Below are positions 1,768 through 60,250 of a DNA stretch of 64,000 nucleotides, in pieces (the first letter of the stretch is position 1; each line of letters starts with the position of its first letter). The notes below the pieces were generated by a model. The model saw nothing but the letters and a program-made list of their open reading frames with translations. It did no database searches and had not been told where the DNA came from. Position numbers and translations under genes: made by a program. The DNA lies in assembly GCA_944472155.2 (NCBI GenBank), contig OX235272.1:2836354-2900353 (forward strand), read 5' to 3'. The stretch comes from Trichobilharzia szidati (taxonomy: Eukaryota > Platyhelminthes > Trematoda > Strigeidida > Schistosomatidae).

Positions 1768-3570
1768 ATAATAATAATAATAATCTACTTTATTCCAAAA
1801 GCAGTACTTATAATACAGAATCGAATTCTCAGCATTTGTCACAAAATTGCATCTGATTTGCTCAAAATATGAATAAAATTAAAACAAAATTAATCAGGGG
1901 AATTTGTCCACACTTATGATATAAAGTCAAAAATATTCAAAGTACGAGCTGAGAAGATTAAATATAATAATAATAACAATAATAACAGTGAGTTTGTGTC
2001 ACACAGTATTGTCGATTCAGTGTGGAAATTTCAGCATGTTATAGATTATTGAATCTAATGTTCTGTTGATATAGTATAGTGAGGGGAAATACAAAGTTAA
2101 CAGTTATAACAGAGCTTAAATGATGTTCACACTTATGAAAGAAATAAACAAAACAAAAAATTGAGAGGATTATAAATATAAGAAGTAAAATAACAATAAA
2201 GGTTGATGTTTTAAGGATGGAGGAAATGTTGTACTCAGTAGTGCAAAGAAGGTTAGTTAGTTCATGCCTAACACTATTTTCATCACATACAGTACGTGCC
2301 GAATATGGTATAGTGGAATTTTTATACTTAGACTAACGTGCATAAAGTCTTCTGAAAAAACTTCTTGTTTTACCTGAGAAGGAGACACAAGGTTGGAGCT
2401 GCGAGTGCTGCGGTGGATGCTCATAGTCTGACAAAATCCATTTAGCAAATTTGTTGCATGAAATCAATTGCCTATCAATGACGAGGACAATGATATGGCC
2501 CAACGGGACACCACTCGCCCTACTGACAGTCTTCAGAGTTCTACCAAGTATGACAGAGTCTATTTTAAACAATCCAGGAAAGAATAAGGATAAAGTATAA
2601 AGAAGAATAGGTAAGATGCACGAGTTGACAAACTGTAAGAGGAGGGTTGGTTAAGTTATGCCTGAGTGCCTTAACTTCTTAATGTAAAAAGTCAGACGAA
2701 ATATTCTTTTAGAAATCGCTTAGATATGGGAAGACCAGGATAGGTCAGTATAAAGAATTAGTCCAAGATACTTAACTTCAGACTTGATTTCTATATCGCG
2801 ATCATCAATTTTGCAACAACAACTTCATTTAACTTTCGTTTACATTGGAAACTGAAATTAACAGTTTGACATTTGAAATGATTTAGTTTAAGACCATTAA
2901 ACGAAGACTATTTGCTAACTCCTAATAGAAAGCTGTTCATCTCAGTACAGACTAGCTGAGAGTTAACAGACATTGAAATAGTTAGATCATCGGCATACTT
3001 AACAAAGTTCATTTCGTCATCAGAGTGTGCAAGTTATGCAAGAAGAAAGAAAACAGAAAAGGAGAAAGGACAGTGCATTGAGGGACACCAGCCTCAGTAA
3101 GCAATGAAGTGGACGACTTTCCCTGACATACAGTGTATTGCTTTCTCTCTGAGAAATAAGAATGCAGCCATTTGACAACCCAACAGTCAGTTTGAGTTTC
3201 AGTAAGCTTGTTTAACAAAATGTCCCTAGGTACTGAGTCGAAAGCAGATGTGTAATCTACGAAGATGCAGCGATCAAATTTAGCCCCCTTGTCTAAACTC
3301 GAGACAATGTTATGATACAAGACTGCAGCTCCACCTAAGGTACTTCTACTACTTTTGTAGGCGAATTGTTCGGGATCGTTAAAGGCTTTAAGTGAAGGTT
3401 GAAGATTAAGTAAGAGCAACTTTTCCATAAATTTTAGAAAAGGAGAGATAATAGCAATAGGTTAAAAATTTAAAACATGTGACGGTAGATGACTTGAGTA
3501 TAGGTACAATTTTAGTGTCCATCCAAACGGCTGGCACGACATTTCTGGACACCAGTGTTGATAGGCATGA
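1768..3570 (-). mobile_element. CR1-like non-LTR retrotransposon, 5'-truncated
   Basis: Reverse-transcriptase region at 3009-3428: DPEQFAYKSSRST, motif A FVDYTSAFDSV, and motif B GVPQCTVLSP with Cys where Gly is usual. After a frameshift the catalytic box KYADDL lies near 2985. A further frame at 2333-2572 matches the C-terminal piece seen again at 14.4 kb. The 3' end probably runs to the (AAT)n tract followed by 'ctactttattcc' at 1768-1800. The copy is dead, with frameshifts and no 5' half. The SR1/CR1 clade is inferred from the motifs. Confidence 0.7.
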
Positions 3571-22480: not shown

Positions 22481-22630
22481 TCATAACCTAACTATAAGTT
22501 CATTATAAATAAAATTATTATAAATAAAATTCTGTTTTGATTTTCTTAAACACTATGGGATTAATTTACATAATTTATAATGAATCAATCTGACTCGGAA
22601 GTTCGTAACACCTACGGTTTGAAAAGTTGT

Positions 22631-22812
22631 GCGTCGGTGGCACAGCGGTTAGGACTCTCGCCGACTATGCACATGGTCCGAAGTTCGATCTCTCGCAGAC
22701 GCACACCTGATATCTATGGTCGGCCTGCTAAATTTGGGCTACCGATATCACATGCTGAAAATTTCACACTTGTACCAAAATACTGTGTGGAATCAAGCTA
22801 TAATAAAATTTA
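22631..22812 (+). mobile_element. SINE-B1 copy
   Basis: Head GCGTCGGTGGCACAGCGG, B-box-like AGTTCGATCTC, then the B1 body 'ggtcggcctgctaaatttgg' and tail 'tgtggaatcaagctataat' with an A-rich end. Confidence 0.8.
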
Positions 22813-26436: not shown

Positions 26437-26627
26437 TTAAATTTTTATTTTTGATCACAGCTTGATTCCACACCGTATTTTCAGTACAAGTATGGAATTT
26501 TCAGCATGGATATCGGTAGCCCAAATTATGCAGGCCGACCATAGATATCGAGTGTACGTCGGCAGGGAATCAAACCCCGGACCATGTGCATAGTCGGCGA
26601 GAGTCCTAACCACTGCGCCACCGACGC
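26437..26627 (-). mobile_element. SINE-B1 copy inside a PLE 3' end
   Basis: A full-length reverse copy: tail 'gatcacagcttgattccac', head reverse 'cactgcgccaccgacgc'. It sits directly beside the hammerhead-like motif of the PLE. Confidence 0.85.
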
Positions 26628-26670
26628 ATTTCACAGGCTCTCATCAGCTGCAAACTACCTCAAATTACAA
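26627..26670 (-). ncRNA. Hammerhead-like motif, PLE-C group
   Basis: The minus strand reads GCAGCTGATGAGAGCC, TGT, then GAAAT. CUGAUGA and GAAA are present with an eight-base spacer. It occupies the same place in the 3' UTR as the motifs at 37.56 and 43.66 kb. Confidence 0.45.
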
Positions 26671-36760: not shown

Positions 36761-37515
36761 CAAAAACGTGAAAGAAAAGTCTCCATCGCCAAAAATCACA
36801 GTTATTCCTAAGAAAGCTCTCTCCATGAACCTGGAATCCAAAGGGGATATCGAAGCAGTTATTCTTAGAAAACGACTTTCTACATGTCTAAAGAAGACAT
36901 TTCAGGCAGCCACCTCACGTACGACATTCTCCAGCGGACAGTTAATCCAGTCTAACGTTAAGAATAAGACACCGCTTTCGGCCACCTCAATGGTGTGTAT
37001 TTATCAGTTTACTTGCTCATGTAGAACAAAGTATGTCGGCCGTACGCAGCGCCAAGTCCATAAACGTATTCTGGAACACTGTCCAGCTTGGTTAGCCAGA
37101 GGAGAAAAAAAGGGATACTAGCAGCTCCATCCTCAAACACCTTTTCAACTCAGGATATCGAACACCCCAGCATGCATGCTTCACAGCGCTACACAGAGTC
37201 CCTCAACATCGTACGAAAGGACTGAAAAGACGCCACATGTAAATAGCTAAAATCGCTGGTTATTCGGGATCTGAAACCGGACCTCTGCATTTAAAAGCAC
37301 CACAAACATTCCCACTCCCTGTGGTGGCCAAAGTAACCTTCTCACTATAATTTTGCTTCCTTTTGCTATGTAAGTTTATTATTATTATTATTATTCTCAT
37401 CACTCTTATTTTATTGTCACTCTACTGCTGTTTATTAGTAGCATTGCGTTTTCATACAGATTTTATAAAAACACTTAATTGTTTCATACATTTGGTTCCC
37501 TTGATAAATTTCGAT
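36729..37515 (+). pseudogene. PLE-C group connector and GIY-YIG endonuclease, broken
   Basis: Frame 36729-37121: connector end VIPKKALSMNLESKGD, then MVCIYQFTCSCRTKYVGRTQ, RILEHCPAWLARGEKKG, then a stop. Beyond it the C-terminal half to 37340 is in shifted frames (LPVVAKVTF-like end). The core is YVG. 3' UTR with ATT repeats at 37376-37395 follows and abuts the tail of a minus-strand PLE. Confidence 0.7.
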
Positions 37516-37555
37516 AGAGAAAGAAAGACCAGATATGCAGTATAAAATGATATCA

Positions 37556-37600
37556 TTCTATTTCACAGGTTCTCATCAGCTGCAAACTACCTGAAATTAC
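37556..37600 (-). ncRNA. Hammerhead-like motif, PLE-C group
   Basis: The minus strand reads GCAGCTGATGAGAACC, TGT, then GAAATAG. Core boxes CUGAUGA and GAAA are intact with an eight-base spacer. It sits near the 3' end of the host PLE. Confidence 0.45.
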
Positions 37601-38001
37601 AATGGTTATAATTAATAACATTTCATACTTCATTGTTTGAAAGGTAATACAGAAAGCATTATAAGATAAACTCATCCGGAATATAAGGATTAAAATTTTG
37701 TAGTTTAAGTTACCATCAATTTATATACTATCAAACTATGAAAAAAGGAAGAAAAAGGGGGGAGTGAGAGAAGACAGAAAACAGAAAAATCTAATAAACA
37801 GCGTCAACATGGCAACTCAACAAGGTCAAAGTTCATCAATTTGAAAACTTGCTTCGTGAGTTGAACTCATTAGTGTCTATGAGTAATCAGTGTAATGGAA
37901 GTGATATGGTTACCAAGGGAGTGAGAGATTGACTACACTCTCTTTCTGTGTGCATAAGTTTGGTCTGAGACGTTTTATTGCAATTGCTTCAGCAAATCGT
38001 A

Positions 38002-39666
38002 GTAGAATAACAGATTAGTTATGGGGTGTCAAAATAAATAGTCGTATTTGTGTGACAAACGTGCTAGGCTGAATTCGATTACAAAATAATGTAAAACGGG
38101 AGACAATGGTGATTAATCATAATAGATTTGTAGAGTGGGGTGTAGGAAAATTGACAAGTCAGTTCAAGGTTATAAAAGGAGTCAGGTGAGTGGCTAGTAC
38201 AAAGTGGTCTGTGTTAAACAGGAGATAGTAAGACTGCAATGGGAGGTTCATAATGAGATAACGAATATGTGAAATGAAACAGGTGGAAGCATATATTGAG
38301 AAAAGAGATAATATCACTAATAATAAGTCCGGATAGTATAAACGAAAAAAAATTCTATAGTATTGAGAGAATGTTTGCATGAAGGGCATAAATTATGACG
38401 AATAATAATAATAATTGTAATAATAAGCAAAGGAAAAAAAAGTCCAAGAGGGTTAAGGGGAAGGAGCACTCTTGGTGAGAAGAAGAATCATCAATCCAAG
38501 TTTGGCCACGGTAGGAACAGCGTCTGGACGTGTTCTTTTTGGATACAAAGTTCCGGTTTAGTCGATCTTATTGCAACAGCTTCAGCTATGTGTAGAAGAC
38601 GTAAGCGGACTGTACGTGATAACGACTTCGGAATTCGGTATATAACCCTGAAAGCTGTGTTGACATCGATATGATGTCCCGTATCGACCAAGTGTGACAG
38701 GATCGAGCTTTTTATGCACTTAATTTCCCCTCTGCTGAACCAAGCTGGTAAATGTTCTCGAACCCGTAGACGAACCTGCCTAATCGTGCGCCCTATATAA
38801 CTTGAACCACAGGAACAGTTGAAATGGTATATGCATGAAGAAGAGCTAAGATTAGGTAAAACATCTTTGAGTTGCTGGGTGAACATTGGACGGCTACTGA
38901 AAGATAGACACAGACGTGCAGAGTAGAAAGTTTTCTTGATCGCCCTGGTTAAACGTTGCGATAGAATCTCCGCAGGAGTATCTCCCTTGAATTGGAGACG
39001 TAAAAACAGAGGCTTTTTCTCCACCGTTGTCAGTTCATGTTTACGGCTATTGTAACCTATGTTTGCTTTAATGAACTTCTCTGGATATCCGTTCTCACTT
39101 AGAATGTCTCGGATGACCTGGAGTTGATGATGGATTGGATTGATGATTCTTCTTCTCACCAAGAGTGCTCCTTCCCCTTAACCCTCTTGGACTTTTTTTT
39201 TCCTTTGCTTATTATTACAATTATTATTATTATTGTTATTATTATTATTAATATTATTATTATTCGTCATAATTTATGCCCTTCATGCAAACATTCTCTC
39301 AATACTATAGAATTTTTTTTCGTTTATACTATCCGGACTTATTATTAGTGATATTATCTCTTTTCTCAATATATGCTTCCACCTGTTTCATTTCACATAT
39401 TCGTTATCTCATTATGAACCTCCCATTGCAGTCTTACTATCTCCTGTTTAACACAGACCACTTTGTACTAGCCACTCACCTGACTCCTTTTATAACCTTG
39501 AACTGACTTGTCAATTTTCCTACACCCCACTCTACAAATCTATTATGATTAATCACCATTGTCTCCCGTTTTACATTATTTTGTAATCGAATTCAGCCTA
39601 GCACGTTTGTCACACAAATACGACTATTTATTTTGACACGCCATAACTACTAATCTGTTATTCTAC
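38002..39666. repeat. Inverted arms 38002-38499 and 39135-39666
   Basis: Arms of 498 and 532 bp mirror each other almost base for base; even a 76-codon open frame is the same on both sides. The main difference is the length of an ATT microsatellite (39220-39265 compared with 38400-38426). This means a recent event. Confidence 0.9.
38491..39162 (-). CDS. PLE connector plus GIY-YIG endonuclease, open frame
   Basis: 223 codons. The connector (1-105) has LSENGYPEKFIKAN and VEKKPLFLRLQFKGDTPAEI. The endonuclease begins C110-IYHF, with C116 and C118, then SYIGRTIRQ at 121-129, REH at 135-137, SHLVDTGHHID at 156-166, and ends LFLPWPNLD. The GIY-YIG core residues Tyr and Gly and the Cys/His pattern are kept, and there is no stop. 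The first Met lies within the inverted arm, so the frame is a 5'-truncated one that happens to begin there. It lacks the RT domain and so cannot mobilise itself. Confidence 0.75.
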   Translation of the reverse strand: MVRRRIINPIHHQLQVIRDILSENGYPEKFIKANIGYNSRKHELTTVEKKPLFLRLQFKGDTPAEILSQRLTRAIKKTFYSARLCLSFSSRPMFTQQLKDVLPNLSSSSCIYHFNCSCGSSYIGRTIRQVRLRVREHLPAWFSRGEIKCIKSSILSHLVDTGHHIDVNTAFRVIYRIPKSLSRTVRLRLLHIAEAVAIRSTKPELCIQKEHVQTLFLPWPNLD

Positions 39667-39741
39667 GTTAAAAAATGTATCTGCCGCATAACTGGCCTTA
39701 TTGTAACGACAACAAATATTATATTTTATAATTGTAAGAAC

Positions 39742-39755
39742 CTGAAGAGGCGAAA
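39742..39755 (+). ncRNA. Hammerhead-like remnant in the inverted segment
   Basis: CTGAAGA (39742-39748) and GAAA (39752-39755) separated by GGC only. Both core boxes exist but no stem II is possible. It lies in the longer, inverted 3' copy of the nested PLE. Confidence 0.3.
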
Positions 39756-40126
39756 TAATTGAAAAGAATATTCTTCGTTCAGATTGACTTTTAATTCATA
39801 ATATGGGAATTTTCCACACTATCAAATCGTAGTAGATTCGCTGTCCTTTGTATGTTTAATATTTCGAAGGATTTGGAAATCTCAACAAAATGGCCCGTAT
39901 CCACAAGGTGTCTGGTAATTGCACTTTGTAAATATTTGCTTCCTTTTAAGCATAAGTTTCTCAGAATATGCTCTGCTTTTATAGTGCAAATTTGGTCTTT
40001 CTCTATCGAGACACTTAATTGTCTTTCCACTAGTTCTTGTTCACTCTACACAACTGCATTGATTAGTCATTTTCTCATACTTATTAAGTCATATCAACTT
40101 CTAACGCTTTTCTAACTTCCAGTCAT

Positions 40127-43194: not shown

Positions 43195-43600
43195 GTTTCT
43201 CGAGTTTCACCACAGATTGATATCAGTTAGAGAACCATTGAAAACCACCAGCTGGGAGTACTGAATGGCTGTTTCATACTAGTTAGGGACTCTTTACCAG
43301 TACATACCCACCACCAGGGCTCCAACCCAACACCTTCCGTTTACATGGCAAGCTCGTCTACCAGTTAGCTACTGGAACCCGATTCAATGGCCAGCCCATG
43401 CATGCATTCTAACTTCTACCAATTCGTCATGCATTTAGCGTGACCACCAACCAATGCAATCAGCGGGAGCTCCATTCTCACTCCTGACTGGATGGGCCTC
43501 ACTGGTCACAATTCCTCACTAGAACTCCAGGAAACTCCTTGCCTATAGCTAGTCACTAGCGTGCATCCTTACAAATCAACTCATAAACAATTAGTTTATT
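43195..43600 (-). mobile_element. Long SINE-A copy
   Basis: Tail at 43200-43250, hammerhead region 43260-43310 (decayed), B box reverse 'ggctccaacccaa' near 43318, A box near 43365. The extra 5' segment runs to about 43575, as at 23.9 and 58.9 kb. Confidence 0.7.
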
Positions 43601-43654
43601 GAATTTACTTTAAACAAAGAGAGAAGAAACATTGGCGCAGAATAATCTGGATCC

Positions 43655-43700
43655 ATTTCATTTCGTTGGTTCTCATCAGCTGCGTACAACCTGAATTTTT
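43655..43700 (-). ncRNA. Hammerhead-like motif, left arm
   Basis: The minus strand reads GCAGCTGATGAGAACC, AAC, then GAAATG. Boxes intact; a G-C pair could close a minimal stem II. In sense with the PLE ORF. Confidence 0.5.
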
Positions 43701-44619
43701 GTTATTCAAAATAAATAGTGTACAATTTCTTATCAAACCTTTGCCCATTGGCAAGCATAGTGTCAGAGCGTCATAGTAAAATAAGGCATTGAGATTCACA
43801 GGGTGTCTAAAGTGTCACGACATGTATATATGTATATATATCTTGGTAGAGAGAAGTTTCTTGAAAAAAAATTAGTTAACAGTTGTGTTGTTAGTGTGGT
43901 AACAAAAGACAATTAGCAATAGTTGTGTAATTAGATAAGAGAAGATCGAAATTTTTAAAATTACGGTGCACATGAGGTCAGATGAGAAGTTGATGATGTA
44001 ATACAGTGAGCAGAACTCAGAAGATCAAGAAAAATTATCTCTTAAGAGAGTCAAACGAAACATAAAGGGGAGGGGTGGAGTGAAAAAATAAGTTAACAAA
44101 ATTAGAAAACAAAGAGTTACTGAGAAGTCAGTTACCAGGATAATTGAAGTCCAACGACGAATTCTTTGTGGACACATGAGTCAGGCTTAAATCGTTTTAT
44201 TGCTATAGCTTCAGCAAACTTGAGAAGACTTGAGGTACTCCCCTTTATGTTTCGTTTGACTCTCTTAAGAGATAATTTTTCTTGATCTTCTGAGTTCTGC
44301 TCACTGTATTACATCATCAGCTTCTCATCTGACCTCATGTGCACCGTAATTTTAAAAATTTTGATCTTCTCTTATCTAATTACGTAACTATTGCTAATTG
44401 TCTTTTGTTACCACACTAACAACACAACTGTTAACTAATTTTTTTTTCAAGAAACTTCTCTCTACCAAGATATATATACATATATACATGTCGTGACACT
44501 TTAGACACCCTGTGAATCTCAATGCCTTATTTTACTATGACGCTCTGACACTATGCTTGCCAATGAACAAAGGTTTGATAAAAAATTGTACACTATTTAT
44601 TTTGAATAACAAAAATTCA

Positions 44620-44660
44620 GGTTGTACGCAGCTGATGAGAACCAACGAAATGAAATGGAT
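44620..44660 (+). ncRNA. Hammerhead-like motif, right arm
   Basis: CTGATGA at 44632-44638 and GAAA at 44647-44650. It mirrors the left-arm motif and lies on the other strand. Confidence 0.5.
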
Positions 44661-44818
44661 CCAGATTATTCTGCGCCAATGTTTCTTCTCTCTTTGTTCA
44701 AATTCATAAAAGTGAATCATTGTATGAATTTACTTTAAATGGATAATTTGAGTAAATCAGTGTGTTGAATACAGTGGTCAATATTCTGAGGGTAGTAGTA
44801 ATGGTATTATTATTATGT

Positions 44819-52444: not shown

Positions 52445-53040
52445 AAAAAAATGTTCGTACAGAATAATATTTGAGACTATCATTTATTTCATCATCAGAT
52501 TCTCTTCAAATGCTTACAACCTAAAATGTTGATTGTATAAATGTACATAAAAATTTGTCATCCTTGCAAAGATCAAACATGATTTTTCTTAACAGAGACA
52601 CAAGTTAATAGACAATGTTCAGATGTTCCACCTATTACATAACTTATGAAGGAAGAGGTCAAGATTCAAACAAAATACGAAAACTGAGTTGACCAGTCAA
52701 AGCAACAAATAGGAGAGAAGTTGATGATGATGAGTAATAGACAGTGTGGTGAGTTCCACTAAAATCATAGAGACAGACAAAAAAGACCTGAATAACACTA
52801 AAGCAAAAAAAAATGGGTAAAAGCAGAAGTTTATGTGATCAGTTGAGGCAAACAGTTTAAACTTTGGGTTACCAAGGTAACGAAAGACTAATAAGTGAAT
52901 CTTTCTGAACACGTAAGTCAGATTTTAAACGTTTCATAACGATTACTTTGGCAAATTTGAGGTGTCTACTCATGACCCGTATCAATAAGATGTCTGGCAA
53001 TAGCACTGTACAGGGTGTTTGGTGACCCAGCATCTAGTCA
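52445..53040 (-). mobile_element. PLE-C group C-terminus and 3' UTR
   Basis: The minus strand at 53020-52900 holds remnants of a HLIDTGHE- and FKNVY-like end. The 3' UTR runs to a hammerhead-like motif at 52480-52530 (TTGAAGAGAATC then GAAATAA). The region matches 55.10-55.35 kb in the opposite orientation. Confidence 0.55.
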
Positions 53041-53274
53041 CTTCGTCTTAACCGATTACGTAATCCTTCGATTAAACCCCTCCCCAACCTTTTTTGCTTT
53101 AGTTTCACTCAGTACTATGTAATTGGTACAATCATCATGTCGAGTCACCTGACAACTCCAGTAGGTCGAATAAAGTAGCTCAACCTTCAGAAGGAAGACA
53201 GAGCAATAATTCTGACAGGGTGCTTCTACTAAACTCTAATCCTAAACACCATAATTTTGAAAATACGTCTAATC

Positions 53275-53350
53275 ATAAAATTCTAGATACTAACAGTTTG
53301 AACGGACATGAAGGCGTGATGTTAGCTGATGCATAGGAAATCCTTATTAA
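53275..53350 (+). mobile_element. PLE-D ORF-end fragment
   Basis: 'ggacatgaaggcgtgatgtt' and 'agctgatgcatagg' match the reverse of 49060-49110. Confidence 0.5.
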
Positions 53351-53391
53351 TAAATAAATAAAAATGGATATGTATCACTAATTATTAATAT

Positions 53392-54339
53392 TTGGTCAAA
53401 ATTCTCGACTGTCCATATCTTCTTATGGAGATGTTAAGAAATGTTTTACAACTGTTTACCCACACACACATACACACTGTATCTCCCAGAATCCAGTTCA
53501 CTTCGGAAGCAGAATCAGACATCGGTGAACTACCATTTCTAGATTGCCTAGTTAAGAGAAAGGAAAACAGACATTTTAGTATATCCATATTCAGGAAGAA
53601 AACCCACTCAAATAAATATTTAGACTTGAAGTCATCACACCCCATCAGCGCAAAGATTTCAGTTGTTTCAAGTCTTCTTAGACGAGCACACTCTCTGATA
53701 ACCGACGAGAAAGAAAAAGAAATATCAAACATTACTGAAACTCTCAAGCAAAACAACTACCCATGGAACTTCATCAACAAAATCAACACAGACATTAAGT
53801 ATGGCCGAAAACGCATTCCGAAAACATGGACATCCAAAGTCGTCATTCCATATAGAGCAGAGACGTCAGACGATATCAGAAGAGTACTCAATCAGCTCGA
53901 TATTAGAGTTTTCTTCAAAACATCAGATACACTTCAAAGCAACCTTGTCCACATAAAAGACCAAATCCCTATAGATTCTCTATCTAATTGTGTCTATAAA
54001 ATAAAATGCTTGGAATATGATGCGATATACATCGGACAAACATTATGAGAAATCAAAATCAGAAGAAATGAACACCATATAGCATCTCTTCGACCACCGA
54101 GAAATCCCGTTGAACTACAAAAACTTGAAAAATCATCAACCATAGGGCGTCTACAGAGTATAGAATCAGGCGACGAAATTGATTTTGACAATATTGAAAT
54201 AATCCAGAAAAAATTCAGAAATCACAAAGAACGTCTAATATCAGAAGCACTTCATATCAAGTGGAATCCAAATTGCCTGAATAGGAATGATGGACTAAAA
54301 CAGAATCTGACCTGGTTACAACACCTCTCTCCCCCATGA
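53392..54339 (+). pseudogene. PLE-D RT end, connector and GIY-YIG endonuclease, one stop
   Basis: 316 codons in one frame with a single stop (54046-54048). The real element sequence starts at about 53500 with GELPFLDCLVKRKENRHFS, the end of the RT. Connector: SLITDEKEKEISNITETL, NNYPWNFINK, SKVVIPYRAETSDDI. Endonuclease: NCVYKIKCLEYDAIYIGQT then the stop, then IKIRRNEHHIASL, SGDEIDFDNIEI and FRNHKERLISEAL, with LQHLSPP at the end. This is the longest PLE coding stretch in the window, and 3' UTR follows. It resembles PLE-A in the QT after YIG and in its C-terminus. Confidence 0.75.
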
Positions 54340-54775
54340 AGTGACAAAATCAACACGAATGTGATATGCAAGATCACACACTGCCTTTATAATTTCACAA
54401 ACTGATCAAATCCAACAATCTACACTTGGTTTTGTTATCTTTACCAATTGACCAACTTGACAACGAAAAATGACCCCAGAGAGACGAACGATGATCAAGT
54501 TAGTAAACTTTATTTTGATATATCATAACAGACGTACTATTATTTGGTTTAGTGATCTTCATTGTTATTTTGACTTTCATTATGTCCTTTTAACTTGACC
54601 TCAGTGTATTTTCTCACCTTTTAGCTCTTTGTTATATATATGCTGAGATTTTGTAAATTCCGGTTTAATAATACTTTGATAAAGCTATTAGCAGCATTAA
54701 ATAGCGAGACGTCAGTAAAAACAATATCGTTTTGCTTTTCATTCATTGGGAAATACAAAAACCTTTATTATAATG
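54340..54775 (+). mobile_element. PLE-D 3' UTR and end
   Basis: 3' UTR following the ORF. A stem GCTATT (54684-54689) pairs with AATAGC (54700-54705), followed by GAGAC. This looks like a hammerhead stem II with a mutated GAAAC box and TTGATAA upstream. The element ends near 'acctttattat'. Confidence 0.6.
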
Positions 54776-54974
54776 AACATACACATTCTGTTTAAAGTGT
54801 TTAACAAAGGTAGACCAATATTTGTAAGTCCGAGGTCAAATTTTGATCACAGTTCATATGATTTTGTTTATCATACTTGTTGATACTTGTTTTATGACTC
54901 ATGATTGGACAAAGTTTTTAAAAACAAAAGATGTGCCTTTTATATATAAGCCTCTGTTATGTTAATTTTGATTA

Positions 54975-55022
54975 ATTTCCCTGAAGAAGTTCGGACCAGA
55001 TTGCCGAACAAAGCGTTGGAAT
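54975..55022 (+). ncRNA. Hammerhead-like motif with full stem II
   Basis: CTGAAGA (54981-54987), then a perfect six-pair stem GTTCGG (54989-54994) / CCGAAC (55004-55009), then AAAG where GAAA is expected. PLE hammerheads have this layout. The base change in the second core box probably kills cleavage. Confidence 0.5.
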
Positions 55023-55104
55023 TAATCATTTCAATCTCGCTGAGATTTTACAAATGTTCTTTCGGCTTATCTTCAATATACAATTGAGTTTTCAATGCAT
55101 CCGA

Positions 55105-55350
55105 CATGTTCGTATTTCGTTTGAATCTTAACCTCTCCCTTCATACGTTATTTAATAGGTGGAACTTCTGAACATTATCTATCAATTTGTGTCTCTGTGA
55201 ACAAAAATCATGTTCGACTTTTGCAAGTACGACAGAATTCTATGTACATTTATACAATCAACATTTTAGGTAGTAAGCAACTGAAGAGAATCCGACGAGG
55301 AAATAAATGATGGCCTCATTTATTGTTCTGCACGAACATTTGTTGTTTTT
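55105..55350 (+). mobile_element. PLE-C group 3' end with hammerhead-like motif
   Basis: Matches 52.45-52.69 kb in reverse with many substitutions. CTGAAGA at 55281-55287 and GAAA at 55300-55303, with a 12-base spacer that barely pairs. Confidence 0.55.
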
Positions 55351-60054: not shown

Positions 60055-60250
60055 CTGAGTTAGTTCTCAGTGGTTGAATGGTCTACAAGCTTTCCTTGTA
60101 ACCAGAAAATCCTACGTTCAAACCCTGCTAGTAGGTGCGTACTGTTGAAGGGTCGTAAACTCGACGAAACAGTTGTCCAGTACACTTTGGTGATTTTCAG
60201 TGGTTCCTTAACTGATATCAATCAATCTACGGCCAAACTCGAAATTCATA
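60055..60250 (+). mobile_element. SINE-A copy
   Basis: A box TGGTTGAATGG, B-box-like CGTTCAAACC. Hammerhead remnant CTGTTGAAGGGTCG, 'taaact', CGACGAAACAG, where stem II is rebuilt as GTCG/CGAC but the core CUGAUGA reads CTGTTGA. The triplet TGTC is kept. Confidence 0.75.

Follow-up and report, generated by a model that had tools for sequence, protein, structure and literature searches.

The locus raises the question of how a single insertion can carry, on its 5' side, an inverted copy of its own 3' region that is longer than the 3' region it mirrors. The window (the whole stretch of DNA analysed, 64,000 nucleotides of contig OX235272.1 in the Trichobilharzia szidati assembly GCA_944472155.2) contains a young Penelope-like element (PLE) at 38007-39822, inserted within the endonuclease frame of a second PLE. 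The sense strand of the insert is the minus strand. Read from its 5' side, the insert consists of an inverted tail and 3' UTR (39822-39135), a filler, a truncated endonuclease (39125-38491) and a direct 3' UTR (38490-38007). Its parts and the two other elements that enter the argument are as follows.

37483-40010, minus strand: host PLE of a second family; its endonuclease frame is interrupted by the insert and rejoins as LLRF-AEAI
37993-38006, plus strand: left copy of the target-site duplication, CAAATCGTAGTAGA, 14 bp; where the direct arm starts, the element RNA pairs with the final 5 nt of this copy
38007-38490, minus strand: direct arm (3' UTR); it ends at unit position 3138, short of both A (3268) and B (3301), the usual sites, which lie further downstream
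38491-39125, minus strand: 5'-truncated, C-terminal endonuclease part of the PLE ORF; the same stretch lies within the longer frame of family copy L014
39126-39134, no strand: short filler where the two arms meet head to head, its limits approximate and set by eye against the same L014 stretch
39135-39667, plus strand: inverted 3' UTR copy, which reads as 3' UTR on this strand
39668-39822, plus strand: 155 bp past the mirrored part, the normal family tail, running to the canonical initiation site B within the first ORF codons
39823-39836, plus strand: right copy of the target-site duplication, CAAATCGTAGTAGA, 14 bp; its first 6 nt, CAAATC, continue the element tail
43615-44724, minus strand: two-armed PLE of a third family, with 15-bp duplications at 43600-43614 and 44725-44739

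An earlier note on this DNA had described one PLE inserted in another as a single event, and the structure bears it out. The 14-bp duplication is where the note had placed it, and between its copies lie the truncated endonuclease ORF (frame 39177-38491, minus strand), its 3' UTR and an inverted, nearly identical copy of that UTR (about 490 bp, with few differences). The arms match as two inverted pairs, 37998-38441/39224-39667 (444 nt, 96%) and 38429-38499/39135-39205 (71 nt, 97%); the former is the longest of the 33 inverted pairs in the window that are at least 60 nt long with copies at most 8 kb apart (the 25 longest were listed). A gapped alignment over about 490 bp leaves one substitution, a 3-nt indel, a 1-nt indel in a T run and a 30-nt microsatellite indel. 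When the flanks are joined with one copy of the duplication, the reconstructed empty site restores the host frame at the LLRF-AEAI junction that the note had predicted, reading in frame as ...TANLLRFAEAIAIKRLRPNLCTQKESVVNLSLPW to a stop (the joined flanks are also given as ...ANLLRFAEAIAIKRLRPNLCTQKESVVNLSLPW to a stop).

Palindromes are hard to assemble, and two related loci (L016 and L046) contain N gaps, so an assembly error has to be weighed together with two adjacent but separate insertions and with later rearrangement. An artefact at the palindrome is unlikely because the arms differ from one another, a target duplication is present at the junctions and the same assembly contains 29 further two-armed elements. 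The single 14-bp duplication and the clean host frame speak equally against separate insertions, and we regard this whole group of explanations as very improbable indeed.

The greater length of the inverted copy, given in the note as about 155 bp, measures 155 bp at the outer end. Other copies of the family carry these 155 bp as a normal tail that extends beyond the start codon and into the ORF, which makes the inverted arm the complete one. The note's framing, in which the inverted part is longer than the 3' UTR, is therefore reversed: the direct arm of the window copy is short because its start lay farther upstream than the usual sites, at a 5-nt match to the target and 157 nt upstream from where its partner started (unit 3138 versus 3295). 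This bears directly on the snap-back during target-primed reverse transcription that the note had offered, with a template switch as the alternative. A first cDNA that folded back and copied itself into an inverted arm would give arms of one source, nearly identical as they are in the window copy, and self-priming of this kind has been suggested for rotifer PLEs (PMC3846280). A copy cannot, however, be 155 bp longer than its template, and the first strand lacks those bases; nor is the endonuclease part mirrored in the inverted arm. We retain from the note the idea that the inverted 3' region arises during target-primed reverse transcription and reject the snap-back, which has very little probability left once the microhomology found at both outer ends (below) is added.

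The element belongs to a family in which an 813-aa frame, that of L014, matches RVT_1 (E 8.4e-11). Among the best 120 of 608 listed matches, the protein closest to it is P0001 from Schistosoma spindalis (807 aa; 55% identity over 100%), and the other named relatives are mostly flatworm. A YIGRT motif, which we take to be that of a GIY-YIG endonuclease, is visible by eye; neither L014 nor the window fragment had a Pfam endonuclease match that reached 1e-3. The pLTR is direct in L014 and inverted in many copies, with ends about 33 nt apart, a spacing that matches the PLE tail of about 30-40 bp. A string in the insert, CTGAAGAG...GAAA, may be a hammerhead remnant, seen by eye only; the hammerhead-like remnant that the note had reported in the inverted copy was not confirmed, with no Rfam family at E<=1 in 37900-39900, and the tails of the second and third families (37300-37800 and 43500-44800) likewise gave no Rfam match at E<=0.5. 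The label PLE rests on the descriptions in PMC4465651 and PMC3846280 and not on a profile-model match; PLE sequences from T. szidati were reported earlier in the former. Two copies, L014 and L025, are very long two-armed elements with arms of 2.3-3 kb.

To see the window copy among its relatives, we searched the assembly (1.11 Gb, 907 contigs), which gave 3648 first-look candidates, 40 of which were scored. The near-complete matches among those 40 represent 36 loci, counting once the pair L029/L030, where the same insertion and flanks occur twice, 28 kb apart, apparently through local duplication. They hold 37 family elements: 20 two-armed with both ends readable, 12 one-armed (a call that inverted pieces shorter than 20-30 bp would escape) and 5 unclassed, so that 20 of the 32 classed elements are two-armed. 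Five further loci (L050-L054), all two-armed and all with a B end, were hand-chosen from the 40 scored places of a tail search, and L049 was added for its two tail-search matches at one place; these six are not a random sample since they were found by their B end (L049 by two). From the second and third families, four two-armed elements were followed to both ends in fetched DNA and in the window. Weaker tail matches of these families were left out (window 15.6, 21.3, 26.4-26.7, 50.4 and 55.3 kb; L018, L024, L025, L026 and L028), as were, from the count of ends, L016 and C497 (N gap), L034, L037/L048 and L044 (ambiguous), L029 (the same as L030) and the one-armed L012, L013, L018, L019, L021, L028, L032, L036, L040/L047, L041, L042 and L043.

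When the ends are aligned, the tail ends of the fetched copies cluster mainly at two sites 33 nt apart: site A, ...GACTTTTAAT (unit 3268), and site B, ...CACTATCAAATC (unit 3301). Thirty two-armed elements had both ends read, 26 from the family of the window insert and four from the two others (three from the second and one from the third, with A and B assigned by eye). In 29 of the 30, B accounts for exactly one of the two ends and the other lies upstream; these comprise 24 elements with tabulated duplications, L038 (whose duplication, containing two mismatches, was read by eye; the top match by script at that locus was the element's own palindrome) and the four of the other families. The remaining element, L049, has B at both ends and lies in an (AT)n target where the duplication is not clear-cut. 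Without L049-L054 the rule holds in 24 of 24. If each end chose its site independently, exactly one B would be expected with a probability of at most one half in each element, and at least 29 of 30 would occur by chance about 3 times in 10^8, treating the insertions as independent. That the outer ends differ in 29 of 30 elements counts against the snap-back in its turn.

In the 24 tabulated elements the B ends lie at 3290-3309. Their upstream ends comprise 17 at 3259-3269, four at 3251-3255 and one each at 3237, 3197 and 3138 (the window copy), and this spread indicates that site A is less fixed than B. How often the inverted arm is the longer one, a count that the note had suggested, can be answered from the sample: in the insert's family B lies on the inverted arm in 11 of 25 heterotypic elements and on the direct arm in 14, with B on both arms in the 26th copy, which means that neither site is tied to one of the overhangs. 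We also considered, and rejected, a special RNA structure around the two sites, as the folding energy was no better than that of shuffled sequences (z 0.30; 114 of 200 shuffles as good). A short pLTR target, TAATCTGTTATT (unit 3128-3139), received two independent insertions from different families (L022:7590-7848 and L039:567-1200). We considered a connection between that spot and the end of the window arm at 3138 and set it aside; no mechanism was found, and the agreement may be a coincidence.

The target duplications can be read directly in the DNA: they measure 10-16 bp in the 24 tabulated heterotypic elements and 12 bp in 13 of them (with one mismatch in L031 and L035, and within AT repeats in L024 and L051). 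The outer ends share microhomology with the target. It averages 2.73 nt between target and element RNA over 48 ends, compared with 0.62 when targets are swapped between elements, and none of 20000 permutations reached the observed mean. Because a duplication is always taken at its longest, we also ran a stricter null that permits chance extension both ways, and over the first 38 ends the observed mean was 2.79 versus a null of 1.06, whose maximum was 2.0 in 5000. The window copy shows an overlap of 6 nt at B (CAAATC) and one of 5 nt at the upstream start (TCTAC; UCUAC in the RNA). At the inner junctions the mean overlap is 1.65 nt in 23 elements (the set omits the window copy and L014, and includes four with filler or a mismatch and no overlap) versus a null of 0.70, whose maximum in 3000 was 1.57. 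Self-priming with an antisense transcript as template, a possibility considered for the PLEs of Adineta vaga in 2013, would account for the head-to-head arrangement (PMC3846280); it predicts neither paired internal starts nor target microhomology at both outer ends, and since both are seen we judge it highly unlikely. A first reading in which one-armed copies were without duplications was dropped because L042, L043 and L040/L047 have 10-11 bp (by eye), L021 has 14 and L036 has 7 (by script). Script matches of 4-7 bp in the one-armed L012, L013, L018, L019, L028 and L032 were taken as chance, and no duplication was found by eye in L041.

The two arms of an element also share a history. Private variants, defined as those in no other aligned element (the microsatellite tract and 6 nt at the arm ends being excluded), are common to both arms of one element at 2.60 per kb (26 in 9996 bp, in 12 of 24 pairs). 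The same sharing between different elements is 0.045 per kb (51 in 1.12 Mb, in 39 of 1669 pairs), a density 57 times lower. The 12 arm pairs that share no private variant mostly have short arms. The arms of the window copy share two private variants in 420 bp. In a tree of the longer arms, the arms are sisters in five of six elements, the exception being the window copy (node support 0.458). Nine arm differences were not simple private changes, and one of these (L025, 1382) is at a commonly variable site. As judged from these alignments, the sharing shows that the two arms of one element stem from one source locus, which fits one RNA molecule or two alike. Private changes over the 24 pairs number 38 in inverted and 10 in direct arms. 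We make no claim that the inverted arm is the more error-prone, since 18 of these changes come from L025 alone (18 substitutions in one arm and none in the other), the direct arms of near-complete matches were picked by similarity to the query, and the six tail-search elements have 4 inverted versus 2 direct.

Our findings are likely to be explained by a mechanism in which a staggered cut leaves two 3' overhangs, each of these primes reverse transcription on element RNA, and the cDNA ends are then joined. Cleavage of the two target strands by the PLE ribonucleoprotein would produce 3' overhangs of about 12 nt (14 at the window copy), and each overhang would anneal by a few bases to the element RNA and prime reverse transcription. 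Site B, the distal internal one, would serve as the start for one overhang; the other overhang would start farther upstream, in most cases at A, 33 nt from B. For the window copy, the 5-nt match UCUAC would have set this upstream start 157 nt from its partner. Both cDNAs would be antisense and attached to opposite ends of the break, and their 3' ends would be joined by microhomology or a short filler, in a putative repair step, and then filled in. The product would be flanked by a target duplication, and its arms would meet head to head with both tails pointing outward. Priming from two overhangs followed by cDNA joining, in this presumed order, would account for the duplications and the microhomologies found at three joints, for arms set head to head with a tail on one side, and for the common source of the arms. 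Arms that overlap and form an inverted repeat would follow from both primers starting near the RNA tail, as in the 20 of 32 classed elements at near-complete-match loci. The points against it are the B/B ends of L049, the spread of the upstream starts, the 12 one-armed elements among 37, the duplications of L024 and L051 in AT repeats, the window arms that are not sisters in the tree and the 12 of 24 pairs that share no private variant.

The RNA used by both primers has one source and is probably one molecule. Dual priming on two RNAs of the same source locus, each with its own overhang and with the halves of a protein dimer set at A and B, is a possible but doubtful alternative. A dimer has been predicted for the lizard PLE protein (PMC11167929), dual priming has been proposed for L1 (PMC2837659), a common arm source is also expected from two transcripts of one locus, and the B/B ends of L049 would be in keeping with it. 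Unless the dimer were asymmetric, however, A/A or B/B elements should be frequent, and 1 in 30 was seen; starts far from A (3138, 3197 and 3237) are also a better fit to a second primer searching one tethered RNA.

The mirror-image end is an ordinary, known feature of PLEs: inverted pLTRs, with an optional tail at one of them, have already been described (PMC3846280, PMC8969392). As in Adineta vaga (Pen2a and others; PMC3846280), the inverted pLTR is at the 5' side and the element is 5' truncated; duplications there were 8-10 bp in the cases seen, and a 31-bp tail was present at one inverted pLTR. The direct end of the window copy departs from that pattern in being non-canonical, and our work goes beyond it in counting the pairing of tail and no tail over 30 elements and in tying it to target microhomology and a common source. 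The origin of the inverted pLTRs was left open in 2013, with self-priming favoured and a sense or antisense template undecided (PMC3846280). The purified PLE protein PAc of the lizard Anolis shows no difference between the strands: it cuts and extends both, from two adjacent internal start sites (PMC11167929), and this supports the proposed mechanism. Our elements resemble that system in having two adjacent internal starts that bound the tail just inside the ORF and in the proposed cutting and extension of both target strands. The PAc work, in contrast, was in vitro, its main text does not connect the pair of sites with the two ends of a single insertion, and it describes the steps after initiation as still to be validated (PMC11167929).

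Twin priming and dual priming have been described or proposed for L1 (PMC2837659). The likeness lies in the proposed priming of a second overhang on the element RNA, in two inverted fragments between target duplications and in overhang microhomology. L1 twin priming, however, is a variant with an internal deletion (PMC2837659); here there is no such deletion and the arms overlap as inverted repeats. In the literature searched, which covered few subscription papers, we did not find a pairing rule or two-ended priming stated for PLEs, nor any paper that combined 'Penelope-like elements' with 'twin priming'.

The paired-end rule connects the inverted-pLTR structures with the in vitro biochemistry of two strands and two sites, and counts of ends in any PLE-bearing genome can put the model to the test. 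It may be, and we hold the chances to be even, that PLE integration is obligately two-ended, with one RNA and two start sites about 33 nt apart, one for each overhang. The 'optional tail' and the 'inverted pLTR' would then together mark a mechanism other than one-sided target-primed reverse transcription, and copies with a single arm would represent its failures. Two-ended priming predicts inverted products, and this gives it relevance to the use of PLE enzymes as sequence-insertion tools.

The neighbours of the insert add to its setting. The host PLE is itself two-armed: it has a short inverted tail at its 5' side (right) that corresponds to site A, its 3' side (left) is at site B, and its 12-bp duplication, ACACTTAATTGT, lies at 37471-37482 and 40011-40022. 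The arms of the third-family PLE at 43615-44724 are 98% alike over about 470 bp, with one end about 30 nt longer. For another inverted pair in the window, 52446-55344, the search for a target duplication gave none. Around the host PLE there are inverted short repeats that look tRNA-like by eye (36062-36342/40125-40405; also 22630-22749 and 26509-26628), and no target duplication joining the two members of the outer pair, 36062-36342/40125-40405, was found. Away from the insert, at 60139-60183 on the plus strand, the window contains a match to Rfam Hammerhead_1 above the gathering score (35.2 bits).
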